From NCBI GenBank assembly GCA_025450315.1, contig JANWHQ010000014.1:1-64000 (forward strand): a stretch of 64,000 nucleotides of DNA, given 5' to 3'. Origin of the DNA: Caulobacteraceae bacterium (GTDB taxonomy: Bacteria > Pseudomonadota > Alphaproteobacteria > Caulobacterales > Caulobacteraceae). A program made the position numbers and the translations under genes. This document shows, piece by piece, positions 3,528 through 61,899 of the stretch (its first letter is position 1; each line of letters starts with the position of its first letter). The notes beneath the pieces are model-generated. The model did no database searches. It was not told where the DNA came from and saw only the letters and a program-made list of their open reading frames with translations.

Positions 3528-3644
3528 CGGCCGCCCGGGACGAGACGGCGGCGATGAAGCATTCGTCATTTTCGCCGGAGCGACTCGCGCGCTAAACCAG
3601 GGGTGGCCGCGCCATTCCCCCGGCGCGTCCTTGCAGGTTGGGCA

Positions 3645-3839
3645 GTGCAGTCGAACTTTGAGATCAACACCCGCGACGACGGGGAGGTGGAGGTCGTGGT
3701 GCGCCCTTCGGGCGCGCGCCCGATCCGGCTGGTCGGCTTCGCCTCGCAACGATCGGCGGAGGAGTGGGTCCGAACTCGCGTCGCGCGCGAGGATCGCCAT
3801 CTTGCGGCGCCGCCGGCGGCCGGGCCGCGGCTCTACTGA
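3645..3839 (+). CDS. Small hypothetical protein
   Basis: 64 residues from a GTG at 3645 that has AGGTTGGG upstream. The core (FEINTRDDGEVEVVVRP then IRLVGF) reads as a short beta-rich fold, and a helix (SAEEWVRTRV) follows. No signal peptide or membrane segment. An alternative GTG at 3603 would add a basic leader that looks less natural. Function unknown. It is convergent with the small membrane protein at 3849. Confidence 0.55.
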   Translation: MQSNFEINTRDDGEVEVVVRPSGARPIRLVGFASQRSAEEWVRTRVAREDRHLAAPPAAGPRLY

Positions 3840-3848
3840 GCCGGAAGG

Positions 3849-4127
3849 TCAGGACCTGATCGCCGAGGGGCCTTCGTCCGCGGCGGGAGAGGAGGCGGCC
3901 GGCACGCTGACCGCCAGGGCCTCGCCGCGCTGGGCGCCGGGCTCGGCCCGCCAGAACGCCAGCGTCGCGGCGACCATGGCCAGGCCCACGAACGCCCAGG
4001 CGGCGCGGCGGCGCATGCCGGGCAGCCTGAGGCTCGAACCATCGCCGAGCAGGTCGAGGCCCTCGGTCCCGCGGCGCCGGCCGAGGCGGGCGGACCTGTA
4101 CTCGGATTTCCACTGCGTCCGGTTCAT
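3849..4127 (-). CDS. Small single-pass membrane protein
   Basis: 92 residues starting at an ATG with a strong Shine-Dalgarno (GGAGGAGAC) immediately upstream, which decides the start against the much longer frame reaching 4949. A basic N-terminal half (MNRTQWKSEYRSARLGRRR) is followed by one hydrophobic segment (AAWAFVGLAMVAATLAFW) and a short Ala/Ser/Pro tail. This predicts an inner-membrane protein with a cytoplasmic basic N-terminus. The function is not recognised. Confidence 0.6.
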   Translation of the reverse strand: MNRTQWKSEYRSARLGRRRGTEGLDLLGDGSSLRLPGMRRRAAWAFVGLAMVAATLAFWRAEPGAQRGEALAVSVPAASSPAADEGPSAIRS

Positions 4128-4319
4128 GTCTCCTCCAACGCACAGCCTACGCCCGTGGGCCACAGGGCGGATCACAAGTTTCCGGGAGCGGTCCGTGATC
4201 GGCGGCGCGATGCGGGCGGCTGCAAGCGAGCGGCAGGGCGTTGGAGCGCGTCGGCCGCCCATGGCGCCGGGGCGGCCCGACTGCCAATCTGGGCGCGGGC
4301 CTGGGCAGGAGAGCCGACG

Positions 4320-4808
4320 CTGAAAGCCTCGTTCGCGCCGGTGACCGACGTCCGCACCCGGCTGCTGGTGCTGGGCAGCCTGCCCGGCGAGGTCTCGCTG
4401 GCCCGGGGCCAGTACTACGCCCACCCGCAGAACCAGTTCTGGCGGCTGATGGCCGAGGTCACCGGCCGGCCGCTGCCGGCGATGGCTTACGAGGCGCGGT
4501 TGGCGGCCCTGCTGGAGGCCGGCGTCGGGCTCTGGGACGTGATCGCCACCGCCGAGCGGGCGGGCAGCCTGGACGGCGCCATCCGGGCGCACCAGCCCAA
4601 CGCCCTGGGCGCGCTGGCGGCCGGGCTGCCGCGACTGCAGGCCATCGCCTTCAACGGCGGCAAGGCCGCCGCGATCGGGCGCAAGGCGCTGGCCGGCCTT
4701 GAGGACTGGGCGCTGGTCGACCTGCCCTCGAGCAGCCCCGCCTACACCCGCCCGTTCGCCGAGAAACTGGCGGCGTGGAAGGTGCTGGCGGCGATTGTTC
4801 AGGCCTGA
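4320..4808 (+). CDS. DNA-deoxyinosine/uracil glycosylase-like protein (UDG superfamily, family 6)
   Basis: About 162 residues. LVLGSLPGE near the N-terminus, YYAHPQNQFWRL, GLWDVI and LPSSSPA near the C-terminus are the UDG-fold motifs seen in hypoxanthine-DNA glycosylases (Hdg). Such enzymes excise deaminated bases in base-excision repair. The conserved region begins right at the usual family start, but no ATG, GTG or TTG lies there. A CTG at 4320 has AGGAG at 4307-4311 with good spacing and is my preferred start. Alternatives are a GTG at 4341 without a ribosome site, or an unnatural 55-residue extension from 4155. Confidence 0.8.
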   Translation: MKASFAPVTDVRTRLLVLGSLPGEVSLARGQYYAHPQNQFWRLMAEVTGRPLPAMAYEARLAALLEAGVGLWDVIATAERAGSLDGAIRAHQPNALGALAAGLPRLQAIAFNGGKAAAIGRKALAGLEDWALVDLPSSSPAYTRPFAEKLAAWKVLAAIVQA

Positions 4809-4872
4809 GGCGAAGCCCTGGACCGTCGCGGCGAAGCGTGATGACGTCGCAGCATCTTCCGATCTTCGACCG

Positions 4873-6048
4873 GTGATCGCCTTGAGCGCCGAACCACCCG
4901 CCCGATCGCCACGGTTGCCCGGGCTCGACCTGCTGCGCGCGGCGGCCATCGCGTGGGTGATGCTCTACCACCTGGCCGTGCTGGGGCTGATCGCGTCCAC
5001 GACCTGGCTGGTCCGCTTCGGCTGGATGGGCGTGGACCTGTTCTTCGTGCTCAGCGGCTTCCTGATCGCCGGCCAGCTGCTGCGGCCCTGGGCCAGGGGC
5101 GAGACGCCGAGCCTGCGCCGCTTCTTCGCGCGCCGACTGCTGCGGACCCTGCCGGCCTATTGGGTGGTGCTGGCGATCTACCTGCTGGTTCCGGTCCTGC
5201 GCGAAACCCCGCACCTGCAGCCGGTGTGGGTGTTCCTGAGCTTCACCCAGAACCTGGTGCTCGGCCACCAGCCCAACGCCTTCTCCCACGCCTGGTCGCT
5301 GAGCGTGGAGGAGCAGTTCTATCTGGCTCTGCCGCTGGTCCTGTTGGCGCTATGGGTGCGTCCGAGCGCCCGGGCCGCGATCCTGGCGATGCTCGCGGTG
5401 CTGGTCGGCGGCATGTGCCTGAGGGCCTGGCTGTGGACGCACCAGGTCGTCGGGCCGGACGGCCAGATCCACGACATGCGGTACATGCGGCTGATCTACT
5501 ATCCGACCTGGTCGCGCCTGGACGGCCTCTTGGCCGGCGTGGCCGCGGCGGCGATTAAGCTGTTCCGGCCCCGGCTCTGGGACAAGGTCACGGCGCGGCC
5601 GAACCTGCTGCTGGCCCTGGGCGCCTTGACCGTGATCGCCTCCAGCTGGCTGTTCGGCGGCCAGATCGCGGGCTTCTGGGGCGCGACGTTCGGCTACCCG
5701 CTGCTGGCGCTGGGCCTGGGCGCCATGGTGATGGGCGCCAGCGCGCCCGAGTCGATCATCGGCCGGCGCGCCATTCCAGGCGCGGGCTGGGTCGCGGCGG
5801 CGTCCTACAGCCTCTATCTCAGCCACAAGATGGTGTTCCACGCGGTGAGCGCGGGACTCGCGCCGATCCCGGCCGATTGGAAGCCCCTGGCCCCGGTGCT
5901 GGCCGTGGCCTTGGCCGCGCCCGCCGGCGTGGCGCTCCACCTTCTGGTGGAGCGGCCGTTCCTGAAGCTGCGCGACCGGCTGAGCGGACCCTCGCGCAGC
6001 TCCCTTTCGGCGGAGGCGGCGCCGAGGCTCGCCACCGTCGAACCCTAG
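4873..6048 (+). CDS. Acyltransferase family 3 membrane protein
   Basis: About 391 residues with around ten hydrophobic segments. The family signatures are an N-terminal LPGLDLLRAAAI followed by a His (MLYHL), VDLFFVLSGFLI, and the SHAWSLSVEEQFYL block. These OafA/YrhL-like inner-membrane enzymes O-acylate surface polysaccharides or other extracytoplasmic substrates. The acceptor cannot be predicted here. Start uncertain: GTG at 4873 or TTG at 4882, neither with a clear ribosome site. It follows the glycosylase gene by ~65 bases on the same strand. No SGNH domain is fused. Confidence 0.85.
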   Translation: MIALSAEPPARSPRLPGLDLLRAAAIAWVMLYHLAVLGLIASTTWLVRFGWMGVDLFFVLSGFLIAGQLLRPWARGETPSLRRFFARRLLRTLPAYWVVLAIYLLVPVLRETPHLQPVWVFLSFTQNLVLGHQPNAFSHAWSLSVEEQFYLALPLVLLALWVRPSARAAILAMLAVLVGGMCLRAWLWTHQVVGPDGQIHDMRYMRLIYYPTWSRLDGLLAGVAAAAIKLFRPRLWDKVTARPNLLLALGALTVIASSWLFGGQIAGFWGATFGYPLLALGLGAMVMGASAPESIIGRRAIPGAGWVAAASYSLYLSHKMVFHAVSAGLAPIPADWKPLAPVLAVALAAPAGVALHLLVERPFLKLRDRLSGPSRSSLSAEAAPRLATVEP

Positions 6049-6109
6049 GCTCGACCGTGGCCGGCCGCTGTGCTCAAACTCCGTCCGTCATGAGACTGGG
6101 AGGATGGCC

Positions 6110-6814
6110 ATGGCGAGAAGGATGATCTGGGCCGGCGCGGCCATGCTGTGCGCGGCCGCCGCCCTGGCGGGATGCCAGAAGAACGCGGCCGAGGAGGCCT
6201 CGGCCTCCTCGGCGGCCCCGGCGTCGGAGGCCGCGGCCAACGTGCAGCCGCAGTTCGGGGGCGGGGTGGTCAATGGCCTGGCCGGCCAGACCCTGACCGT
6301 GATGGCCCAGGGCGCGCCGGTGACCTACCAGCTGACCCCCTCCACGGCCATCATGGTGACCCACAAAGGCACGCTGGCCGACATCAAGCCCGGCAGCTTC
6401 CTGGGGACCACCAACACACCCTCGGCCGACGGCTCGGGCCTGTCCACCGAGGTGCACATCTTCCCGCCGGGCGTGAAGATCGGCGAGGGGGACCGGCCGA
6501 TGGGGCCGGCGCCGGCCAGCGGCCAGGCCACGCGGATGACCAACGGCACGGTCTCCGCCGCCAGTCCCGCCGCCGGCGGCCAGCGCATGACCAACGGCGC
6601 GGCCGGCAATGTGGCGACCACCTCGCAGGGCGTCCAGATGGACGTGGCCTACCAGGACGGGACTCGCCATATCGTGGTCACTCCGACCACCCCGATCACC
6701 GTGATGAGCTCGGCCAAGCCCGAGGACCTGAAGCCGGGGACCAATGTGCTGGTCGGCTATGTGCCGGGCCCGGGCGGGACCAAGACCGCGAGCTTCATCA
6801 ACATCCAGCCGTAG
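6110..6814 (+). CDS. Lipoprotein with repeated beta-rich domain
   Basis: 234 residues. The ATG at 6110 is preferred over 6104 because GGGAGG ends at 6102. It has a signal peptide with a lipobox (ALAGC), then an Ala/Ser linker. Two similar beta-rich blocks follow (around TVMAQGAPVTYQL and VQMDVAYQDGTRHIVV), each followed by a 'xIKPGxxL' or 'LKPGTNV' motif. Between them, MTNG occurs twice in an Ala/Gly-rich linker. The repeated layout resembles DUF5666-type beta domains, which is a tentative match. Probably a membrane-anchored envelope lipoprotein of unknown function. Confidence 0.65.
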   Translation: MARRMIWAGAAMLCAAAALAGCQKNAAEEASASSAAPASEAAANVQPQFGGGVVNGLAGQTLTVMAQGAPVTYQLTPSTAIMVTHKGTLADIKPGSFLGTTNTPSADGSGLSTEVHIFPPGVKIGEGDRPMGPAPASGQATRMTNGTVSAASPAAGGQRMTNGAAGNVATTSQGVQMDVAYQDGTRHIVVTPTTPITVMSSAKPEDLKPGTNVLVGYVPGPGGTKTASFINIQP

Positions 6815-6849
6815 GCGCAAGGATGGCGGGCTGAACCGGGAGACCCGCC

Positions 6850-7362
6850 ATCGATCCCGCCGACCTGCGTCCGGACTGCGACCGCTGCGCGGCCCTCTGC
6901 TGCGTGGGGCCCGCGTTCGACCGGTCGGACGAGTTCGCCATCGACAAGCCGGCCTGCGTGGCCTGCCCGAACCTCGACGAGGAGGATGGCTGCAGCATCC
7001 ACCACCGGCTGGAGAAGGCCGGCTTCCGGGGCTGCATCCTCTACGACTGCCTGGGGGCGGGCCAGAGGGTGGTGCAGGAGCTCTACGCCGGCCGGTCCTG
7101 GCGCGCCGATCCCGACCTGCTGCCCGAGATGTGGCGGGCCCTGACCTCCCTGCGCGGGGTGCACGAGCTGATCCTGCTGCTGGCCACCGCCGCCAAGGCG
7201 CCGCTGTCGGTCGCGGAACGCCGGACGCTGGAGGCGCTGCAGGCCGAGCTCGAACCGGCAGGAGGATGGACGCCGGAGAGCCTGGAGGCCTTCGCCGCCG
7301 GCCCGGTTCCGGGACGCGTGCGCGCGTTCCTGAGGTCGCTGCAGACCTATTTCGCCCGATGA
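6850..7362 (+). CDS. Cysteine-cluster protein (YkgJ-like zinc/Fe-S cluster)
   Basis: About 170 residues. The N-terminus carries CDRCAALCC, then CVACPNL, CSIHHRL, GFRGCILYDCLGAGQ. This cysteine pattern is typical of the cluster found ahead of pentapeptide repeats in some proteins; no pentapeptide repeats follow here. The cysteines begin upstream of the first standard start (GTG 6904), and the frame is open only from 6835, so translation probably starts at a rare codon. ATC at 6850 has GGGAGA at the right distance, and CTG at 6859 is the other option. The metal-binding role is inferred from the cysteines. Confidence 0.6.
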   Translation: MDPADLRPDCDRCAALCCVGPAFDRSDEFAIDKPACVACPNLDEEDGCSIHHRLEKAGFRGCILYDCLGAGQRVVQELYAGRSWRADPDLLPEMWRALTSLRGVHELILLLATAAKAPLSVAERRTLEALQAELEPAGGWTPESLEAFAAGPVPGRVRAFLRSLQTYFAR

Positions 7363-19339: not shown

Positions 19340-21592
19340 ATGACCGACGCCGCCCCCGACCTTTCCGCCGCCGAGACTCCCGCCGACTTCGGCGACGACC
19401 CGGGGGCCGTGGCCCGCCGCTGGATCAGCGAACTGGAGCTGGCCGAGAAGGACCAGGAGAGCTGGCGCCGGCGCGGGCGGCGGATCATCGGGCGCTATCG
19501 CGAGGACCGGGCCGAGGCGGCGCCGGAGACGCGCGGGCGGCGGTTCTCGCTGCTGTGGGCCAACATCCAGACCCTGGGTCCGGCCATCTACGCCCGCACG
19601 CCCACGGCGGTGGTAGGACGCCGCTGGAAGGACGACGATCCGGTGGGCCGCGTGGCCTCCGAAGTGCTCGAGCGGGCGCTGAACTTCGCCGTCGACAGCC
19701 TGGATTTCTCGGATGTCCTTCTGGGTCTGAGGGACGACTTCCTGCTGGTCGGCCGCGGCCAGGCCTGGGTGCGCTACGTGCCCCACCTGCGCACGGCGAC
19801 GCCGCCCGCGCCGCCGCCCGACGCCGAGGGCCAGGTCGCCGACGATCCGGAGCCCTTCGAGGTGGTCGACTGGGAGGAGGCGGTGGTCGACCACGTCTGC
19901 TGGGACGACTTCCTGCACAACCCCGCCCGCACCTGGGCCGAGGTGCGCTGGGTGGCGCGCACGGTGTTCATGACCCGCGAGGAGCTGATCCTGCGCTTCG
20001 GCGAGGAGGTGGGCGGCGAGATCCCGCTGGACCACGGGCCCGAGGACCGGGCGGGCTCGCCCGACGAGAACCAGCAGTGGAAGAAGGCGGCCATCTACGA
20101 GATCTGGGACAAGCCCTCGCGCACGGCGCTGTGGATTTCCAGGAGCTGGACCGAGGGGGCCCTGGACCGGCGCGAGGATCCGCTGGGGCTGGCCGACTTC
20201 TTCCCGTGTCCCCGGCCGATCCTGGGGGCCACCGCGCCGGACAGCCTGATCCCCACCCCCGACTACGTCTATTACGAGGGCCAGGCGCGCGACATCAACG
20301 ACCTGACCGGCCGCATCGGCCTGCTCACCGACGCCATCCGCCTGCGCGGCTTCTATGCGGCGGGCGGCGAGGCGGGAAAGTCGCTGGAGGACCTGTTCTC
20401 CAGCGAGAGCGGCACGCTGATCCCGGTGGACAGCTGGGCCGCCTTCGCCGAGCGCGGCGGGGTGAAGGGGCTGATCGAGTGGATCCCGCTCGACATGGTG
20501 ATGAGCGCCCTGCAGGGCTGCATCGAGGCGCGCAAGCAGCTGATCGACGACGTCTACCAGGTGACCGGCATCGCCGACATCATGAGGGGCGACACCGATC
20601 CGGAAGAGACCGCCGCCGCCCAGAGGATCAAGGCCAACTGGGGCGCCTCGCGGGTGCGCGACAAGCAGAAGGAGCTGGCCAGGTTCGCCCGCGACGTGCT
20701 GCGCATCATGGGCCAGGTGATCGCCGGCAGGTTCGCGCCCGAGACCCTGGCGGCCATGACCAACGTGCAGCTGCTCCCGACGCCCGAGGCCAAGGCGGCG
20801 CTGGCGGCGCAGCTGCAGGCGGCGGCCCGGCAGGCGGCGATGGCCGCCGCGCGGGCCCAGGCGACTGGCCAGCCGCCGCCGCCGCCGTTCCGGCCGCCGG
20901 CGGCCGCCCAGGCGCTGCTGGACCAGCCGAGCTGGGCGGAGGTGATGGGCCTGCTCCGCGACAACACGCTGCGGGCCTTCCGCATCGACATCGAGACCGA
21001 CTCCACCATTGAGCCCGACGACCAGGACGAAAAGCAGCGGCGCATCGAGTTCATCCAGGCGGTGGGCGCCTATGTGGCCAAGTCGATGCCGGCCCTGCAG
21101 CTGGCGCCGGCGATGACGCCGGTGATCGCCGAAGGGCTGAAGTTCCTGGTGCGCGGCTTCCGCGTGGGGCGCGAGATGGAGGAGGTGATCGACAAGGCCC
21201 TGGCCGACCTGCAGGCGGGCGGCCTGCAGCCGCCGCAGCCGCCGGCGGGCGGGGGGGCCGGAGCCTCGCGCGACACCCAGACCGACCGGTTGAAGGCCCA
21301 GGCGGCTGTGACCAGCGCCGGCGCCAAGGCCCAGGAGGCGGGCGCCCGCCGCTTCGAGGCCGAGACCGACCGCTTCCGCGCCCAGGCCGAGGCGCGCGCC
21401 GACGTCGCCCGGGTGCAGGCGGAGAACGCGCGCACCGACGCCGACCGCTCGGCCGAGATGGCCATGCACCACGACCAGCTGAAGGCCGACCTGCAGCAGG
21501 CGATCCTGTCGGGCGTCAGCCGCCGGTTCATGCGCGAAACGGACCCGGCCCAGCCGCTGGTCGCGCCACCGGACGCGGGCGGACCCATCTAG
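19340..21592 (+). CDS. Phage portal protein (podovirus-like)
   Basis: 750 residues. Near the N-terminus, SLLWANIQTLGPAIYARTP and later LDFSDVLLGLRDDFLLVGRGQAWVRY are typical of long podoviral portal proteins, the dodecameric head vertex through which DNA passes. The C-terminal ~200 residues are Ala/Gln-rich and helical, consistent with the portal barrel. It begins at an ATG just after promoter P1. No terminase gene lies upstream, where one would be expected; the preceding gene is a divergent muramidase-like protein. Phage origin is clear, host origin excluded. Confidence 0.85.
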   Translation: MTDAAPDLSAAETPADFGDDPGAVARRWISELELAEKDQESWRRRGRRIIGRYREDRAEAAPETRGRRFSLLWANIQTLGPAIYARTPTAVVGRRWKDDDPVGRVASEVLERALNFAVDSLDFSDVLLGLRDDFLLVGRGQAWVRYVPHLRTATPPAPPPDAEGQVADDPEPFEVVDWEEAVVDHVCWDDFLHNPARTWAEVRWVARTVFMTREELILRFGEEVGGEIPLDHGPEDRAGSPDENQQWKKAAIYEIWDKPSRTALWISRSWTEGALDRREDPLGLADFFPCPRPILGATAPDSLIPTPDYVYYEGQARDINDLTGRIGLLTDAIRLRGFYAAGGEAGKSLEDLFSSESGTLIPVDSWAAFAERGGVKGLIEWIPLDMVMSALQGCIEARKQLIDDVYQVTGIADIMRGDTDPEETAAAQRIKANWGASRVRDKQKELARFARDVLRIMGQVIAGRFAPETLAAMTNVQLLPTPEAKAALAAQLQAAARQAAMAAARAQATGQPPPPPFRPPAAAQALLDQPSWAEVMGLLRDNTLRAFRIDIETDSTIEPDDQDEKQRRIEFIQAVGAYVAKSMPALQLAPAMTPVIAEGLKFLVRGFRVGREMEEVIDKALADLQAGGLQPPQPPAGGGAGASRDTQTDRLKAQAAVTSAGAKAQEAGARRFEAETDRFRAQAEARADVARVQAENARTDADRSAEMAMHHDQLKADLQQAILSGVSRRFMRETDPAQPLVAPPDAGGPI

Positions 21593-51650: not shown

Positions 51651-52550
51651 ATGTCGAGCCTGGAGATCCGGGCCTTCTTCGATAGGGCCACCAAGACGAT
51701 CACCTATCTGGCGTGGGATTCGGCGACGCGCGAGGGCGCCGTGATCGACCCCGTGCTCGATTTCGACTCCGCTTCCGGCGAGGTCGACACCCGTTCGGCG
51801 GACGAGGTGTTGCGGGCAGCTGAATCCGAAGGGCTGCGGCTGGCCTGGTCCCTGGAAACCCACGCCCACGCCGATCACCTCAGCGGCGCGCCCTATATCA
51901 AGGCCAAGACTGGCGCCAAGATCGGGATCGGCGAGCACATCCGCGATGTGCAGAAGATCTTCCGCCCCATCTTCAACGCCACCGACCTGAACCCCGACGG
52001 AAGCGACTTCGACAAGCTGTTCGCCGACGGCGAACGCCTCCCGCTCGGCGATCTGGAGATCGAGGTCCTTCACACGCCCGGTCACACGCCCGCGGACGTC
52101 AGCTACCGGATCGGGGACGCCGTGTTCGTGGGCGATACCCTGTTCATGCCGGACTACGGCACCGCCCGCGCGGACTTCCCCGGCGGTGACGCGCGCCAGC
52201 TCTACCGGTCGATCCGCAGACTGCTCAGTCTCCCGCCTCAGACGCGCCTGTTCATGTGCCACGACTACAAGGCCCCTGGCCGCGAAACCTATGCGTGGCA
52301 GACCACGGTCGAGGCGCAACGGCAGCACAACGTCCACATTAGCGACGGAGTGAGCGAAGCCGACTTCGTGGCCATGCGCGAAGCGCGAGACGCTGGCCTT
52401 TCCGCCCCGGCGCTGCTGACCCCCTCGATCCAGGTGAATATCCGGGCGGGCCGCTTCCCACCCGCGGAAGCCAACGGCGTCCGCTACCTGTTGGTCCCGG
52501 TGAAGGTCAGAGGGCCGTCCGCCGCCGAAGCCGTCGGTCCGCGGCGCTAG
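51651..52550 (+). CDS. Persulfide dioxygenase-like metallo-beta-lactamase (Blh/ETHE1-type)
   Basis: 299 residues. The metal motif THAHADH (near residue 71), the acidic GDTLFMPDYGTARADFPGGD segment and FMCHDYKAPGRE with a distal His are those of ETHE1/Blh enzymes. Such enzymes oxidise glutathione persulfide to sulfite. Start ATG 51651 follows GGAG by ten bases; ATG 51642 or 51606 are alternatives. It is divergent from the BigR-like repressor, and the sulfite exporter gene follows by 14 bases, completing a detoxification pathway. Confidence 0.85.
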   Translation: MSSLEIRAFFDRATKTITYLAWDSATREGAVIDPVLDFDSASGEVDTRSADEVLRAAESEGLRLAWSLETHAHADHLSGAPYIKAKTGAKIGIGEHIRDVQKIFRPIFNATDLNPDGSDFDKLFADGERLPLGDLEIEVLHTPGHTPADVSYRIGDAVFVGDTLFMPDYGTARADFPGGDARQLYRSIRRLLSLPPQTRLFMCHDYKAPGRETYAWQTTVEAQRQHNVHISDGVSEADFVAMREARDAGLSAPALLTPSIQVNIRAGRFPPAEANGVRYLLVPVKVRGPSAAEAVGPRR

Positions 52551-52564
52551 GGCGGTCCGCAGCC

Positions 52565-53350
52565 ATGTCCCCGCAAGACCTGCTCGCCGTCTTCGCCGGC
52601 GGGATCGTCGGCTTCTCCCTGGGCCTGATCGGCGGCGGCGGCTCGGTGCTCGCTGTCCCGCTGCTGCTCTATGTGGTGGGGGTCCGCGATCCGCACGTCG
52701 CCATCGGCACCAGCGCCCTGGCCGTGGCCCTGAACGCCTTTGCCAACCTCGCCCAGCATGCCCGGGCCGGAAACGTGAAATGGCCCTGTGCCGCCACCTT
52801 CGGGGCCGCGGGCGTCGTCGGCGCGCTGATCGGCTCGACGGTGGGCAAGATGGTCAATGGCCAGCATCTTCTGGCGCTCTTCGCGATCGTCATGGCGGTG
52901 GTCGGCGCCTCCATGTTGCGCGGCCGCTCCGGCGAAGGCGATCCGACGGTGCGCATGGACTCGAGGATGGCCCCTCGCCTGGTGGCGGCCGGCCTTGGCG
53001 CAGGCCTGTTGTCGGGCTTTTTCGGAATTGGCGGCGGCTTCCTGATCGTGCCGGGGCTGATCGTGGCCAGCGGCATGCCGATCCTCAACGCCGTGGGCTC
53101 CTCCCTGTTCTCGGTCGGCGCCTTCGGCCTGACGACCGCGGCGAACTACGCCTTGTCCGGCTTGGTGGACTGGAAGATCGCGATCCTTTTCATCATCGGC
53201 GGGGTCGTCGGCGGCCTCGTGGGCATGAAACTGGCGATCCGCCTTGCCGATCGTCGCGGCGCCCTGGCCAGGATCTTCGCCGTCCTGCTGTTCGCCGTCG
53301 CCGCCTACATGCTGTACCGCAGCGTGGGCCCGCTTGTCGGGCTGCACTGA
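52565..53350 (+). CDS. TauE/SafE-family sulfite exporter
   Basis: 261 residues with about eight hydrophobic segments. GGIVGFSLGLIGGGGSVLAVPLLLYVVGV near the start and GLLSGFFGIGGGFLIVPGL in the second half are the duplicated TauE/SafE signature with its GGGG/GIGGG motifs. It exports organosulfonates or sulfite across the inner membrane. Placement after the persulfide dioxygenase-like gene suggests it removes the sulfite formed. Confidence 0.85.
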   Translation: MSPQDLLAVFAGGIVGFSLGLIGGGGSVLAVPLLLYVVGVRDPHVAIGTSALAVALNAFANLAQHARAGNVKWPCAATFGAAGVVGALIGSTVGKMVNGQHLLALFAIVMAVVGASMLRGRSGEGDPTVRMDSRMAPRLVAAGLGAGLLSGFFGIGGGFLIVPGLIVASGMPILNAVGSSLFSVGAFGLTTAANYALSGLVDWKIAILFIIGGVVGGLVGMKLAIRLADRRGALARIFAVLLFAVAAYMLYRSVGPLVGLH

Positions 53351-53553: not shown

Positions 53554-54789
53554 GTGGAGGTGGCCTTGGAGACGGAACGGTCGGCCGAGGCGGCGCGCGA
53601 ACCTCGTCCCATGCCCGCGATCGACGTGTCGTGGGCCAGCGCCCTGGTGGTCGACGACGTCGAGGAGAACCGCGATCTGCTGGTCCGCCGGCTGCGGCGC
53701 CTGGGGATCACCGACGTCGGCCAGGCGGCCAACGGCCGCGAGGCGCTGGAACGGCTGGGCGAACGCAACTTCGACCTCGTGCTGCTCGACATCATGATGC
53801 CGGAGATGAACGGCTACGAGGTGCTCGACGTCCTGAGGCGCGACGGGCGCACCCACGACCTGCCGGTGCTGGTGATCTCGGCCCTCAGCGAGATAGACGC
53901 GGTGGCCCGCTGCATCGAGCAGGGCGCCGAGGACTTCATCTTCAAGCCCTTCAACCCCACCATCCTGCGCGCGCGGGTGCTGGCCTCGCTGGAGAAGAAG
54001 CACCTGCGCGACGCCTGGAGGCGCGAGTTGGAGCGCAAGCGGGCCGAGCTGAACGAGGCGCGCAACCTGCAGCTGGCCCTGGCGCCGCCGCCGGCCGAGC
54101 GCTCGACGCCCCTGGGGCGGATCGCCATCGAGGTGGTGCTGGAGCCGGCCAGGGAGGTGGGCGGCGACCTGGTCGACCATTTCGAGATCGGCGAGCGGCT
54201 GCAGGCGGCCCTGGTCGGCGACGTCTCCGACAAGGGCGCCGGCGCGGCCCTGGTGATGGCGCGCACCCACGCCCAGTTCCGCGCGCTGGCGGCCCGGCCG
54301 GACGCGGAGGCGCTGTTCGCCGATCCGGCGCGGGCGGTCTCGGCAGTCAACGAGGCGCTCGCCGCCAACAATCCGAGCTGCATGTTCGTGACCCTGTTCC
54401 TGGGCGTGCTGGACGTCGTCACCGGCCAGCTCGCCTATGTGCGCTGCGGCCACGTCCCGCCCTGGATCCGCCGCGCCGACGGCGGCGTCGAGCGGCTGGA
54501 GGCGGCCGCGGGCCTGCCGCTCGGCGTGATGGAGGGCGCGCCCTATCGGTCGGGGCGCACGGCCCTGGCCATGGGCGAGACGCTGCTGGTGGTGACCGAC
54601 GGGGTCACCGAGGGCGCGGCGCCGGACAAGTCCCTGTTCGGCGAGGCGCGGATCGGCGACTGGCTTGCGGCCGCCGGCCAGGCCGCGTCGCTGGATGCGC
54701 TGGTGGCCCAGGTGCGCACGCACGAGGCCGGCGAACCCGCGTCCGACGACGTGGCCGCGGTGCTCCTCAAGATCCAGGCCGCCGGCTAG
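53554..54789 (+). CDS. Response regulator with SpoIIE-type PP2C phosphatase output (RsbU-like)
   Basis: 411 residues. The receiver (ASALVVDDVEENRDLLVRRL, phospho-acceptor Asp in DLVLLDIMMPEMNGYE, Lys in FIFKPF) leads through a coiled helix to a PP2C domain with PAREVGGDLVDHFEI, ALVGDVSDKGAGAALVMA and LLVVTDGVTEGAAPD, all carrying metal-binding Asp. It should dephosphorylate a STAS antagonist when phosphorylated. Start uncertain: GTG 53554, TTG 53563 or ATG 53611. It opens an eight-gene same-strand cluster with an RsbW-like kinase and two STAS proteins. Confidence 0.85.
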   Translation: MEVALETERSAEAAREPRPMPAIDVSWASALVVDDVEENRDLLVRRLRRLGITDVGQAANGREALERLGERNFDLVLLDIMMPEMNGYEVLDVLRRDGRTHDLPVLVISALSEIDAVARCIEQGAEDFIFKPFNPTILRARVLASLEKKHLRDAWRRELERKRAELNEARNLQLALAPPPAERSTPLGRIAIEVVLEPAREVGGDLVDHFEIGERLQAALVGDVSDKGAGAALVMARTHAQFRALAARPDAEALFADPARAVSAVNEALAANNPSCMFVTLFLGVLDVVTGQLAYVRCGHVPPWIRRADGGVERLEAAAGLPLGVMEGAPYRSGRTALAMGETLLVVTDGVTEGAAPDKSLFGEARIGDWLAAAGQAASLDALVAQVRTHEAGEPASDDVAAVLLKIQAAG

Positions 54790-54793
54790 CGGT

Positions 54794-55216
54794 ATGAAGA
54801 CGCTGGACCTGGAGCTGGTTCTGGGTGTCGACGGCGTCTCGGCCGCGGTCGAAAGGGCGCAGGCTTGGCTGGAAGAGGAGGGCGAGGTCGACGCCCGGGC
54901 GGCCATGCACGTGGCCCTGACGCTGGACGAGCTGCTGACCAACGCCTCGACCCACGGCGGCGCGGGCGGACAGGCGGCCCAGGTCCGATTGGAGGTGGCG
55001 GCCGATCGCGTGAAGGTGCAGATCGTCGATCCGGCGGCCGAGTACGACCCTCGCCAGGCGCCCGAACCGGACCTCGACGCCAGCCTGGAGGACAAGCGGA
55101 TCGGCGGTCTGGGCGTTCACCTGGTCATCAAACTGTCGCGTGACCTGACCTACGTCCGCGACAAGGATCGCAATCGGACCAATTATTGGATCGCGCGGAA
55201 CGGGCCGCGGGGCTAG
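54794..55216 (+). CDS. RsbW-like anti-sigma/serine kinase ATPase
   Basis: 140 residues, a single HATPase_c domain. The N-box [18 protein letters not shown] (Glu and Asn), then [14 protein letters not shown] and a Gly-rich [13 protein letters not shown] make up the GHKL fold. As RsbW/SpoIIAB-type proteins do, it likely phosphorylates a STAS protein on Ser/Thr or binds a target regulator. No sigma factor gene is next to it, so its target may be a transporter or a factor elsewhere. It starts 4 bases after the phosphatase gene. Confidence 0.8.
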
Positions 55217-57139: not shown

Positions 57140-57143
<4 letters not shown>

Positions 57144-57520
57144 CCCGGGTCCTGCTGGTCGAGGACAACCCCGAGAACCGCGACATGCTGAGCCGGCGGC
57201 TGATCCGGCGCGGCTATGTGATCGAGTTCGCCGAGGACGGCGAGGAGGCGGTCCGCAAGGCCAAGGACGTCCGCCCGGCGCTGATCCTGATGGATCTCAG
57301 CCTGCCGGTGATGGACGGCTGGGAGGCCACGCGCCGGATCAAGGCCGACGCGGCGACGACCGCCATCCCGGTCATCGCCCTGACCGCGCACGCCATGGCG
57401 TCCGACCGCGAGCGGGCCCTGGAGGCGGGCTGCGACGACTACGATACCAAGCCGGTGGACCTCGAACGACTGCTCGGCAAGATGCTGGCGCTGCTCCCCG
57501 CCGGGAGCGCGCCCGCGTGA
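57140..57520 (+). CDS. Stand-alone receiver domain (CheY-like)
   Basis: 126 residues, a receiver alone: [20 protein letters not shown], phospho-acceptor Asp in [15 protein letters not shown], Thr in IALTAHAM, Lys in [11 protein letters not shown]. It starts at a GTG that overlaps the previous stop by 4 bases (GTGA), so it is translationally coupled. No DNA-binding domain, so it acts on a partner protein, plausibly the RsbU-like phosphatase or the RsbW-like kinase. Confidence 0.85.
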
Positions 57521-57583: not shown

Positions 57584-57916
57584 ATGCAGATCGACAAAAC
57601 CGACCTTGGGGACGCCGTCACCCGCCTGAAGCTGGCCGGCCGGCTCGACATCAACGGCGCGGCGATGGCCGAGATCCCCATCAGCCTGGCGGCCAAGAAC
57701 TGCCAACGGCTTGTGATCGACATGTCCGACGTCAGCTACGTCTCCTCGCTCGGGGTGCGTCACCTGGTGATGGCGGCCAAGACCCTGGGGCGGACCGGCG
57801 GCAAGCTGGTGCTGTTCTCGGTGACCGAGCCGGTGGCGGAAGTCCTCCAGACCATGGCCATCACCGACATCATCCCGATGGCGGCCACCGAAACCGCGGC
57901 GCTGGACCTGGCCTGA
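57584..57916 (+). CDS. STAS-domain anti-anti-sigma factor-like protein (RsbV/SpoIIAA)
   Basis: 110 residues. The fold of a STAS domain, with a beta start (DAVTRLKLAGRLDINGAAM) and the phospho-acceptor helix loop (DMSDVSYVSSLGVRHL) where the Ser in YVSSLG is the usual phosphorylation site. Partner switching would couple its phosphorylation state to the RsbW-like kinase. ATG at 57584 with GGGAGG upstream. Confidence 0.8.
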   Translation: MQIDKTDLGDAVTRLKLAGRLDINGAAMAEIPISLAAKNCQRLVIDMSDVSYVSSLGVRHLVMAAKTLGRTGGKLVLFSVTEPVAEVLQTMAITDIIPMAATETAALDLA

Positions 57917-57965: not shown

Positions 57966-59609
57966 TTGCCCACCACGAGCGTCCTGGCGCCCCTGCTGAC
58001 GGGGCTGGGCCTGTTCTTCTGCGGCGTGCGCTTCATCGCGGCCAATCTGACGCCGCTCGCCGGCCCCTCGGCGCGCCGGCTGTTCCGCGGCGCGGTCAAG
58101 ACCAACTGGACGGTGGCGCTGGCGGGCGTGCTCGCGGGCCTGGTCAGCCAGAGCACCAGCGCCGTGACCCTCGTGGTGGTCGGCCTGGTGCGCGCGGGGA
58201 TCATTCCGGAGGGCCGCGCGGTGCTGCTGCCGGTCTGGTCGCAGGTGGGCGCCGCGGCGCTGGTGATCATCGTCTCGCTGCAGACCGGGCCCGCCGTGGC
58301 CTGCGCCCTGGCGATCGCCGGCGCTGTCCTCTACTTCGATTTCAAGCTTTCCGAACGCCTGCGCCACGCCGTGCTCGTGCTCCTGGGCGTGGGCCTGCTG
58401 TTCCTGGGCATGGAGATGCTGAACGTCTCGAGCGTCCCCTTGCGCATCTGGCTGTCGGCCGAGGGCCTGCTGGCCAAGCGCGAGAACGTCGCGGTCCTGC
58501 TCGTCCTGGGTCTGGTGCTGGCGGCCATCACCCAATCCTCCACCGTGGCGGGCGCTTTCGCCGTGGCGGTGGTGCGGGCCGGCATCTTCGACCTCGACGC
58601 GGCCCTGGCGCTGCTGGTGGGCGCCAGTGTCGGATCGGCCATCAACTACGGCGTTCCCGGGTGGAGGGGGGAATCGGTCGGCGGCAAGGTCCTGCTCTTC
58701 CAGGCCGCCCAGAAGCTGTCCAGCGCGACCCTGCTGATCTTGCTGTTCGCGGCCAGCGAAGGACGGCCGCAAACCGCGCTCGCCGGCTATCCGATCAGCG
58801 CGACGGCGGCCTTCGCCTGGATCTTCCTGGCCATCCAGGTTGGCGGATCGGTGATCTGCACGCTGCTCTACGGCCCTCTGTCGCGGCTGATGGAGAAGAT
58901 CGCACCGCCCAAGGAGAGCGAAACCCTGGCGCGTCCGGCCTATCTGCTCGACGAAGCCCTGGCCGATCCGGCCCTGGCGCTGGAGCTGGTGGAGCGCGAG
59001 GAACAGCGGCTGCTGCAGCGGCTGCCCGCGATGCTGGACGCGGTTCGCGCTGAGGGGGGCGTCGGGGGCTTCTCCCCCGAGGTCCTGCGCGAGGCAGGCC
59101 TCAGCGTCTCGGACGCCATCCGGCGCTATCTGGCGGCCGTCCTGGAATCCGATCCGGGGCGCAACGCCGTGGTCCTGGCGATGCGGCGTCAGCGCGTGCT
59201 GGACAACGTGGTCGCCCTGCACGAGGCGGTGGAGGAGTTCCAGAGGGCGGTGCGGATCGCCCAGCCCCAGGCCGGCGAGGCGGTCGGGCGCATGGTCGAG
59301 AGCCTGCACATGTTGCTGGAGGTGCTGACGGACGTGGCCTCGAGCCACGAGCCGGCCGAGCAGGAGATGTCCCTGGCCCTGCTCGGCGACCGGCGGCAGG
59401 TGATCGAGGGGCTGCGGTCGCGGCTGCTCGGCGCTTCCAAGGACGCCAAGGTGCAGGAGGCATTGTTCCGCAGCACCGTGCTGTTCGAGAGGATCCTCTG
59501 GCTGGCGCGAGATACCGCCGTGGCCCTGATGCGGGCCTCCAGCGAGGCGCCGGCGGCGGAAGCGACCGAGCCGCAGCCGCTCTTGGCCCCGGATGAAGCC
59601 TCGGCATAG
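57966..59609 (+). CDS. Na+/phosphate cotransporter-like protein with PhoU-like tail
   Basis: 547 residues. About nine membrane segments with the paired Na/Pi motifs: VSQSTSAVT and AITQSSTVAGA (QS[ST]SA repeats). After ~residue 320 a helical cytoplasmic region with DPALALELVEREEQRLLQRLPAML and similar helices resembles PhoU. TTG start at 57966 with AGGAGAG upstream. It would take up phosphate or a related anion with sodium. Its place inside a partner-switching cluster suggests control by the STAS proteins, which is inference. Confidence 0.75.
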   Translation: MPTTSVLAPLLTGLGLFFCGVRFIAANLTPLAGPSARRLFRGAVKTNWTVALAGVLAGLVSQSTSAVTLVVVGLVRAGIIPEGRAVLLPVWSQVGAAALVIIVSLQTGPAVACALAIAGAVLYFDFKLSERLRHAVLVLLGVGLLFLGMEMLNVSSVPLRIWLSAEGLLAKRENVAVLLVLGLVLAAITQSSTVAGAFAVAVVRAGIFDLDAALALLVGASVGSAINYGVPGWRGESVGGKVLLFQAAQKLSSATLLILLFAASEGRPQTALAGYPISATAAFAWIFLAIQVGGSVICTLLYGPLSRLMEKIAPPKESETLARPAYLLDEALADPALALELVEREEQRLLQRLPAMLDAVRAEGGVGGFSPEVLREAGLSVSDAIRRYLAAVLESDPGRNAVVLAMRRQRVLDNVVALHEAVEEFQRAVRIAQPQAGEAVGRMVESLHMLLEVLTDVASSHEPAEQEMSLALLGDRRQVIEGLRSRLLGASKDAKVQEALFRSTVLFERILWLARDTAVALMRASSEAPAAEATEPQPLLAPDEASA

Positions 59610-59635: not shown

Positions 59636-59959
59636 GTGTCCGATGAGATCCAGATCCTTCGCCCGCAAGGGCGCCTCGACAGCGCCAGCAGTCCCACGCT
59701 CGAGCGCGAAGCCTTCGAGGTCATCGACGGCGGCGGCCGCCGGCTGCTGATCGACTTCCACGGCCTCGACTACATCTCCTCTGCGGGCCTCCGGGCCGCC
59801 CTGGCCGTGGCCAAGCGCATGAACGCCGCCGGCGGACGCCTCGCCCTCTGTTCGCTGAGCCCCCAGGTGGCCGAGGTGTTCGAGATCTCGGGCGTGAACG
59901 CCATCATCGACATCCACGTGTCGGCCGAAAGCGCCACCGCGCGCCTGACCGGCGGCTGA
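59636..59959 (+). CDS. Second STAS-domain anti-anti-sigma factor-like protein
   Basis: 107 residues from a GTG at 59636. IQILRPQGRLDSASSPTLERE, then LLIDFHGLDYISSAGLRAALAVAK, which is the RsbV consensus with phospho-accepting Ser in YISSAG. It differs from the first STAS protein in the acceptor loop, so the two may answer to different signals or kinases. It lies 8 bases before the GPP34-MFS fusion gene. Confidence 0.8.
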   Translation: MSDEIQILRPQGRLDSASSPTLEREAFEVIDGGGRRLLIDFHGLDYISSAGLRAALAVAKRMNAAGGRLALCSLSPQVAEVFEISGVNAIIDIHVSAESATARLTGG

Positions 59960-59967
59960 GGCGACCC

Positions 59968-61899
59968 GTGGCCGCCCGGGCCCGCGCGTCCCGCTCCGCC
60001 GCCACCCCCGCCGAGGCCTTGCCCGTCTCGCTGATCGAGGAATTCCTGCTGCTGGCCCTGGAGGACAAGGGCGGCGAGTTCAGCCGGATCCCCGAGACCT
60101 CGCTCAGCTGCGGGCTCGCCGGCGCGGCGCTGATGGACCTGGCGATCCGGGGCCGCATCGACTCCGACCTGCACCACCTCTGGGTGGTCGATCCGACGCC
60201 CACGGACTCGGCCGTGCTGAACGGGGTGCTGGCCGAGATCGCCGCCGAGCCACGGCGGCTGCATCCGCGCGAATGGATCGCCCGGCTGATGCCTCGCGCC
60301 GCGCATCTGCGCCGGGAGGCCATCGTCCGCCTGTGCGACCGCGGCGTGCTGCGCCAGGAGGAGCACGCCTTCCTGTGGGTGCTGCAGGCGCGCCGCTATC
60401 CGGTGGAGCGGGGCGAAGAGCGGCTGGAAGGCAAGCGGCGCATCCTCGCCCTGCTGTTCAACCACGAGATCCCCGACCCGCAGGACGCGGCTCTGGTGGC
60501 CCTGGCGGACGCCTGCGGCGTGTTCGGGCGGATCCTCCACGCCGGCGCCTTGGAGGAGGCCGGCCCGCGCATCCGCCAGCTCCGGCGCATGGACCTGATC
60601 GGCGCGGAGATCGCCCACACCGCCGAGATCATGAACCGGGAGATCCGCGCCGCCGAGCGGCGGACGGTGCTCGCCGGTCTCGCTGGCAATGTGATGGAGT
60701 GGTACGACTTCGGCATCTACGGCTACTTCGCCGCCATCATGGGCCAGAAGTTCTTCCCGGCCCACGATCCGGCCACCTCGCTGATGGCCTCGTTCGGCGT
60801 GTTCGCCGTGGGCTTCCTGGGCCGACCCATGGGCGCCCTACTGTTCGGCCACCTCGGCGACCGGCACGGTCGCAAGCACGCCCTGACCGCCTCGGTGCTG
60901 TTCATGGCCGTGCCGACCCTGTTCATCGGCTTTCTGCCGACCTACGCCCAGGTCGGCATGTTGGCGCCGGTGCTGCTGATCGTCCTGCGCCTGTTCCAGG
61001 GGATGGCCGTGGGTGGGGAGTTCACCACCTCGATGGTCCTGCTGGTGGAGTCCGCCCAGCGAAGCCGGCGCGGGCTCGTCGGCAGCTTCGCGCCCGCGGG
61101 GGCGTCGGCGGGGATGCTGCTGGGCTCCATCGTGGGCGCGGCGGTCACAGGGTTGCTGTCGGCCGAGGCGATCTCCGCCTGGGGCTGGCGCGCGGCTTTC
61201 CTGTTCGGCCTGGTCATCGGCCTGGCGGTGCTTCTGGTGCGCCGGCGGTTGCCGCCGGACCCGACCATTGAGGCCATCGGCGAGGCCCGCAAATCGCCAA
61301 TCGTGGCGGCGTTCAAGACCGAGTGGCGCACCATCCTGCGTATCACCGGCATGATGCTGACCCTCGGGATCGGCTTCTATCTGAACTTCGTCTACCTCTC
61401 GACGTGGCTGAGCCAGTACACCCACCTCGCGCGGCCCACCGTGCTGCTGCTCAACGCCCTGATGTTGGGTCTGCAGCTGGTCCTGCTGCCGCTGGGCGGG
61501 GCGCTGTCGGACCGGATCGGCCGCAAGCCCCAGATGCTGCTCTCCACGCTCGGGTTCGCCCTGCTGGCATGGCCGCTCTACACCGTCATCGGCCATGGCT
61601 CGCTGATCGCCGTGCTGATGGGGCAGGCGGGCTTCTCGCTGCTCCAGGCCGGGATCTCCAGCGCCGTACCGGCCTTCTCGGTGGAGGCTTTGCCCAAGTA
61701 TGTGCGCTGCACGGCCCTGTCGTTCGGGACCAATCTCGCCCAGGCCTGCTTCGGCGGCACGGTGCCCATGGTCGCTGTCGCGCTGATCGCGGCCACCGGC
61801 TACAAGCTCGCGCCTTCCCTCTATTTGACCGCGGCGGCGGTGGTGTCGTTCCTGGTCGTGCTGAGCAGCCGGATGCCGGCCGAAGAGGACATCGCCTAG
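59968..61899 (+). CDS. GPP34-domain/MFS (metabolite:H+ symporter type) fusion
   Basis: 643 residues from a GTG. Residues ~20-215 match the GPP34 (Golgi phosphoprotein 3-like) domain: SLIEEFLLLALEDKGGEF, SCGLAGAALMDLAIRGRI, RRILALLFNHEIPDPQDAALVALADACGVFGRIL. From ~residue 230 it is an MFS transporter of the ProP/MHS class (NVMEWYDFGIYGYFAAI, GRPMGALLFGHLGDRHGRKHAL, RLFQGMAVGGEF). GPP34 proteins bind phosphoinositides in eukaryotes; in bacteria the role is unclear. As a fusion it may regulate transport. It is the last gene of the partner-switching cluster. Confidence 0.7.
   Translation: MAARARASRSAATPAEALPVSLIEEFLLLALEDKGGEFSRIPETSLSCGLAGAALMDLAIRGRIDSDLHHLWVVDPTPTDSAVLNGVLAEIAAEPRRLHPREWIARLMPRAAHLRREAIVRLCDRGVLRQEEHAFLWVLQARRYPVERGEERLEGKRRILALLFNHEIPDPQDAALVALADACGVFGRILHAGALEEAGPRIRQLRRMDLIGAEIAHTAEIMNREIRAAERRTVLAGLAGNVMEWYDFGIYGYFAAIMGQKFFPAHDPATSLMASFGVFAVGFLGRPMGALLFGHLGDRHGRKHALTASVLFMAVPTLFIGFLPTYAQVGMLAPVLLIVLRLFQGMAVGGEFTTSMVLLVESAQRSRRGLVGSFAPAGASAGMLLGSIVGAAVTGLLSAEAISAWGWRAAFLFGLVIGLAVLLVRRRLPPDPTIEAIGEARKSPIVAAFKTEWRTILRITGMMLTLGIGFYLNFVYLSTWLSQYTHLARPTVLLLNALMLGLQLVLLPLGGALSDRIGRKPQMLLSTLGFALLAWPLYTVIGHGSLIAVLMGQAGFSLLQAGISSAVPAFSVEALPKYVRCTALSFGTNLAQACFGGTVPMVAVALIAATGYKLAPSLYLTAAAVVSFLVVLSSRMPAEEDIA

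Follow-up and report, generated by a model that had tools for sequence, protein, structure and literature searches.

Gene organization around the fusion gene

We analysed a 64,000-nucleotide stretch of a Caulobacteraceae genome (the window), in which a run of same-strand genes begins with a REC-SpoIIE phosphatase gene and ends with a gene encoding a GPP34 domain joined to a permease of the major facilitator superfamily (MFS). The genes of the run and the parts of the fusion protein are as follows.

53554..54789 (+): REC-SpoIIE (PP2C-type) phosphatase, RsbU/RsbP-like
54794..55216 (+): RsbW/SpoIIAB-like HATPase_c_2 kinase; no second kinase of this kind in the genome scores above 50 bits
55239..57143 (+): hybrid histidine kinase, PAS-HisKA-HATPase-REC-REC
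57140..57520 (+): single-domain response regulator
57584..57916 (+): STAS1, a second STAS-only protein (SSLGVR)
57966..59609 (+): Na/Pi-cotransporter family protein (PF02690, profile match)
59636..59959 (+): STAS2, RsbV/SpoIIAA-like antagonist with Ser48/Ser49 (SSAGLR)
59968..61899 (+): GPP34-MFS fusion gene, 643 aa, GTG start, uninterrupted frame
60031..60615 (+): GPP34 domain (aa 22-216) with the GOLPH3/Vps74 fold (Pfam, structure search, alignment)
60595..60726 (+): single unbroken helix (aa 210-253) linking the C-terminal part of GPP34 with TM1 (predicted by AlphaFold, high pLDDT)
60643..61866 (+): MHS-type MFS permease with 12 TM (MFS profiles, AlphaFold, motifs)

The initial annotation had described a GPP34-like domain of about 200 residues and a transporter encoded in a single frame. 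Both points hold: Pfam GPP34 matches aa 22-216 (E 7.3e-40), and the 643 residues are read without an internal stop. A failing N-terminal match and a gene boundary between the GPP34 and permease parts were both looked for, and neither was found. An SD-like GAGG lies 6 nt 5' of the GTG start, and an alternative start (TTG, 60019) falls in the alignment where the relatives described below have their start codons. A gene boundary or frameshift artefact is ruled out by the open frame together with the same junction in relatives, and a sequencing or annotation artefact by 11 independent contigs with the same in-frame domain order. A GPP34 domain and a transporter are truly joined in one bacterial gene, which is also the sole GPP34 gene of this genome.

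The fusion gene had also been placed at the end of a partner-switching cluster, and a profile scan agrees, as a SpoIIE phosphatase, an RsbW-like kinase and a STAS antagonist are all encoded 5' of it on the same strand. STAS2 lies directly 5' of the fusion gene. Its SSAGLR motif aligns beside S57/S58 of SpoIIAA, which makes these serines candidate phosphorylation sites. Because the STAS2 stop codon is 8 nt 5' of the fusion start, the two genes are probably co-translated from the same operon. Two of the three STAS domains detected by Pfam in the whole genome sit in this cluster. The cluster showed neither a sigma nor an anti-sigma gene, with sigma-factor families giving no match among the cluster genes scanned, and the RsbW-like HATPase returned no PDB match at E 0.01. 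Just 5' of the cluster (51654-53347) lie genes for a metallo-beta-lactamase-fold protein and a TauE/SafE exporter, a pair that resembles a persulfide dioxygenase and a sulfite exporter. Farther away, at about 19300-42000, the genes appear phage-like by eye, with portal- and capsid-like genes starting at 19340 and 28984.

Structure of the GPP34 domain

The GPP34 profile (PF05719) is covered from position 1 to 195 of 201, with a score of 137.6 bits against a gathering score of 29.1. The isolated domain was modelled with a pLDDT of 88.9, and the significant neighbours of this model in the PDB are GOLPH3/Vps74 structures only (E 1e-8 to 5e-6, TMq 0.63-0.72). An alignment profile of bacterial GPP34 domains also retrieves GOLPH3/Vps74 from the PDB, with an E value of 1e-27. 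In GOLPH3/Vps74, membrane binding and oligomerisation occur through a beta-hairpin (PMC4414131, PMC3760917). This hairpin is retained in the fusion protein as predicted strands at aa 128-131 and 134-137, with L136 and W137 invariant; the segment directly after the strands has a low pLDDT in the domain model.

In GOLPH3, PI(4)P is held in a pocket formed by W81, R90, R171 and R174 (PMC4414131). In our alignment, these residues correspond to P42, A51, A112 and R115 of the fusion protein, so that only R174 is retained, and the R90 position is occupied by alanine in most aligned bacterial GPP34 domains. The phospholipid binding suggested in the initial annotation is thus weakened in its specific PI(4)P form. 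With W81, R90 and R171 gone, the alignment supports neither binding of PI(4)P in the classical pocket nor classification of the domain as a strict PI(4)P effector. Because the hairpin is kept, the domain may bind another lipid, contact the membrane or self-associate.

Permease and its connection to the GPP34 domain

MFS profiles match residues ~235-630 (MFS_1, E 3.1e-29; Sugar_tr, E 1.4e-24; Pfam). The metabolite/H+ symporter model TIGR00883 (NCBIfam) matches aa 240-627 with an E value of 1.3e-104 and 350 bits, which, together with a 12-TM MFS model, bears out the ProP/MHS-type assignment made at the outset. Because this score is below the curated cut-off of 443, the permease is best described from its profile matches as ProP-like or MHS-type, outside the named equivalogs. 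The MFS loop motifs GDRHGRK, RLFQG and DRIGRK are intact, and the permease model matches MFS structures in a structure search. The fusion protein is a candidate proton-coupled metabolite symporter. In two Methylocystaceae bins, a beta carbonic anhydrase gene lies directly 5' of the fusion gene (L014:3-371(+) and L019:5850-6437(+)), a neighbour that is possibly a hint at the substrate.

The full-length AlphaFold model, based on 63 sequences, has a pLDDT of 92.4 and a pTM of 0.89. In this model, aa 210-253 form one unbroken helix that begins in the last part of GPP34 and continues as TM1. Because the N-terminus of MFS proteins is cytosolic, the GPP34 domain would face the cytosol and, if the model is right, would be linked mechanically to TM1, the first helix of the transporter. 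The model is compatible with the suggestion that the domain acts as a cytosolic gate.

Distribution and origin of the fusion

The same fusion occurs in 11 other genomes or bins (12 in all) at 54-67% identity. Their contigs are labelled as Rhodospirillales, Methylocystaceae, Hyphomicrobiales, other Alphaproteobacteria and, in one case, Kuenenia; this last bin was placed in the same class as the others in our analysis. Most of the 11 relatives have a start codon immediately 5' of the GPP34 domain. Only 29 of 385 sampled genomes of the class contain GPP34, and still fewer carry the fusion, which was identified in just one of them besides the window's genome.

The permease tree separates the 12 fusions, as a single clade (100/100), from 36 unfused relatives. 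The fused domains are likewise monophyletic in the GPP34 tree (100/100), where two solo GPP34 proteins are their sister group. As each half forms only one clade, the fusion has a single origin and was retained afterwards, and several independent fusion events are ruled out. None of 35 other members of the window's family has GPP34 above the cut-off. The solo GPP34 genes of the order (L177-L181) fall in a separate, distant clade and have no STAS gene nearby. Vertical heritage within the host family is ruled out on these two grounds, and, as the family relatives lack GPP34, this copy was probably acquired laterally, provided that the contig belongs to its bin (contamination, 5.7%).

GPP34 is found in other long proteins as well. 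A second fusion type, clustered on the GPP34 tree (L122 with L127), places the domain in front of a terpene-oxygenase-like cytochrome P450 in several alphaproteobacterial genomes (L120:6382-8484(-), L121:7297-9546(-) and L122:8462-10543(+)); L123, L124 and L127 are likely of this type by tree position and length. Further long GPP34 proteins (L119:7283-9373(+), L125:7881-9767(-), L129:7582-8787(-), L130 and L131) contain 150-460 residues that match nothing in Pfam (L119, L125, L129) or NCBIfam (L119, L130, L131), and in some of them GPP34 is C-terminal or in the middle of the protein.

Association of GPP34 with STAS and RsbW-like genes

Of 76 distinct GPP34 genes, 22 have a STAS gene at a distance of at most 400 nt, and nearly all of these are alphaproteobacterial; for the other 54, no STAS gene lies that close. 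The gap is mostly 5-110 nt, the two genes are nearly always on the same strand, and a HATPase_c_2 gene often adjoins. As controls, 69 loci of sister MFS genes without the fusion (840 kb) were examined, and none contained STAS, HATPase_c_2 or SpoIIE; the link is therefore with GPP34 and not with the permease. The STAS label changes at least five times on the GPP34 tree, so the association does not stem from one recent lineage. The SSAGLR/SSAGIR serines are kept in all GPP34-adjacent STAS proteins.

Because the HMM used for this local count had been trained partly on GPP34-adjacent STAS proteins, the analysis was repeated on whole genomes with the Pfam HATPase_c_2 and STAS models and a kinase threshold of 50 bits. 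A GPP34 gene, either fusion or solo, has an RsbW-like kinase gene at most 5 kb away in 9 of the 12 fusion genomes, and five of these 9 genomes (G000, which is the window's genome, G440, G442, G446 and G447) have no other such kinase above 50 bits. The chance of each such coincidence is, by a rough estimate, about 0.3-2% (10-20 kb GPP34 neighbourhoods in 2-5 Mb); as the genomes are related, this figure is not a formal p-value.

The arrangement varies among loci. L009 has the gene set of the window, rearranged, plus an extra solo GPP34 gene beside its own STAS gene. At L018, the STAS gene is divergent, the fusion gene overlaps the start of the HATPase gene, and a cNMP-SpoIIE gene is next downstream, whereas L013 has STAS, HATPase and cNMP-SpoIIE genes within ~5 kb. 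At L016, the gene divergent from the fusion (4737-7073(-)) encodes STAS, TCAD9 (ternary complex associated domain 9) and an APH-like kinase region. The nearest solo relative of the fused GPP34, L148, is adjoined by STAS and HATPase_c_2 genes. STAS, SpoIIE and RsbW genes are absent beside the fusion itself at L010, L011, L014, L015, L017 and L019. The genomes of L010, L011 and L015 have a solo GPP34 module elsewhere; among the Methylocystaceae, L017 and L019 have one unlinked STAS-kinase pair each, and L014 has none. On three actinobacterial or cyanobacterial plasmids, no STAS gene was seen adjoining GPP34. Since STAS and RsbW-like genes accompany GPP34 across Alphaproteobacteria, the partner-switching cluster is probably the point of this locus rather than its background.

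PF02690 Na/Pi proteins recur at GPP34 loci (the window, L009, L150, L195, L109 and L151). Such genes stand beside GPP34-STAS-HATPase modules at L195:9541-11328(+), L150:2294-3547(-), L009:15183-16832(+) and 57966-59609 of the window. At L012, a gene for a GAF-HisKA_2 histidine kinase (3545-4687(+)) ends ~90 nt 5' of the fusion start.

Possible mechanism

The gene context suggests that the switch controls the transporter directly. In the reading we tentatively prefer, whose probability we put a little below even, the N-terminal cytosolic GPP34 domain is the receiver of a STAS partner switch that controls an MHS metabolite/H+ symporter. The pair of histidine kinase and response regulator would set the activity of the REC-SpoIIE phosphatase, and whether STAS2 is phosphorylated would depend on the phosphatase and the RsbW-like kinase together. 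In its unphosphorylated form, STAS2, which is made beside the transporter from the same probable operon, would bind GPP34 and alter its seating on the membrane, by hairpin insertion or self-association. The change would then be passed through the rigid helix into TM1, turning transport up or down.

GPP34 might instead place or cluster the transporter in the membrane through its hairpin and self-association, while the adjacent switch controls something else. Several observations would suit such a module: the membrane binding and hairpin-mediated oligomerisation of GOLPH3/Vps74 (PMC4414131, PMC3760917), the preserved hairpin and fold, the GPP34-P450 fusions without STAS nearby, which fit a general tether, and the fusions without adjacent switch genes. 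However, an integral membrane protein requires no tether, the PI4P pocket is unconserved, and the repeated STAS/RsbW neighbourhood would be left unexplained, which makes this alternative unlikely, though it deserves attention. The neighbourhood also suits a scheme in which the fusion is an input to the switch: substrate or flux through the transporter would alter GPP34, and capture or release of STAS2 would signal to the partner switch. Gene proximity is compatible with GPP34 as output or as input, the predicted continuous helix between TM1 and GPP34 could carry a signal in this sense, and unfused GPP34-STAS pairs could represent the basic sensor. On the other hand, the PAS histidine kinase and REC-SpoIIE already serve as inputs of the cluster, where no sigma gene or other output gene was seen, and we regard a transceptor role as rather improbable.

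Still less probable is that GPP34 senses lipid, curvature or turgor autonomously for the symporter, in the manner of the osmosensory C-terminus of ProP, with the switch genes merely co-regulated. The MHS family does include the osmosensing ProP (TIGR00883/PRK10642 matches), and the model places a cytosolic domain in rigid connection with TM1, but the PI4P residues are absent and the STAS linkage would go unexplained. A functionless chance fusion or an assembly artefact, which the bin contamination and the 35 family relatives without GPP34 might bring to mind, is refuted by the conserved junction: the same junction occurs at 11 further loci at 54-67% identity, with conserved domain residues and monophyly, and we assign this explanation a negligible probability.

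The reading of GPP34 as receiver of the switch can be extended from the fusion to the domain. Bacterial GPP34 may represent a general class of membrane-side targets of STAS switches in Alphaproteobacteria, acting post-translationally and not through sigma factors, with the transporter fusions displaying direct control of an effector. We offer this generalisation with more doubt than confidence.

Comparison with known systems

GPP34 in bacteria (Pfam; SCO4440, PMC12402492), MHS permeases and partner switches are each already known. The GPP34 domain of the fusion shares with GOLPH3/Vps74 the fold, a full-length profile match and the beta-hairpin, but it is bacterial and fused to a transporter, has lost three of the four PI(4)P ligands and lacks the coatomer-binding N-terminus. 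SCO4440 of Streptomyces coelicolor is likewise a bacterial GPP34 (GOLPH3-like) protein; it is a solo protein encoded beside a D-Ala-D-Ala carboxypeptidase, with no link to STAS or a transporter reported (PMC12402492). The permease resembles the MHS symporters of TC 2.A.1.6 (ProP, TcuC, and shikimate and citrate types) over its whole length by TIGR00883, and differs from them in the added N-terminal GPP34 and in scoring below the curated cut-off.

The cluster resembles the partner switches RsbU/V/W, SypA/E, BtrU/V/W, RbaV/W and HmpU/V/W in its SpoIIE phosphatase, RsbW-like kinase and serine-conserving STAS protein (PMC8256260), whereas no sigma factor is encoded beside it and a GPP34-transporter is its neighbour. 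Such a switch ends in a STAS protein that binds its target when unphosphorylated, and the targets of SypA, RbaV and HmpV were described as unknown (PMC8256260). GPP34 is a candidate for the kind of target that STAS outputs of this type may have. The control proposed here would also recall SulP/SLC26, in which a transporter is under a STAS-type regulatory element; there, however, STAS is fused C-terminally, whereas in the window STAS is separate and GPP34 is fused instead. A literature search, with most subscription journals outside its scope, found no paper joining GPP34 with a STAS domain or GOLPH3 with partner switching, and none on a GPP34-MFS protein; the one paper naming both GPP34 and the major facilitator superfamily was an insect transcriptome. 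The architecture may already be listed in domain databases.

Virtually no function has been assigned to bacterial GOLPH3-like proteins; one 2025 paper reports a mutant (PMC12402492). The fusion within a switch and the repeated GPP34-STAS pairs join two gaps, namely the function of GOLPH3-like proteins and the targets of STAS switches. If the proposed mechanism is true, transporters would be regulated directly by partner switching, and GPP34 would have a role outside the Golgi as a membrane adaptor that is switched by phosphorylation. If GPP34 is a class of STAS targets, this would be a first role for bacterial GOLPH3-like proteins and would provide a candidate target for orphan STAS outputs.
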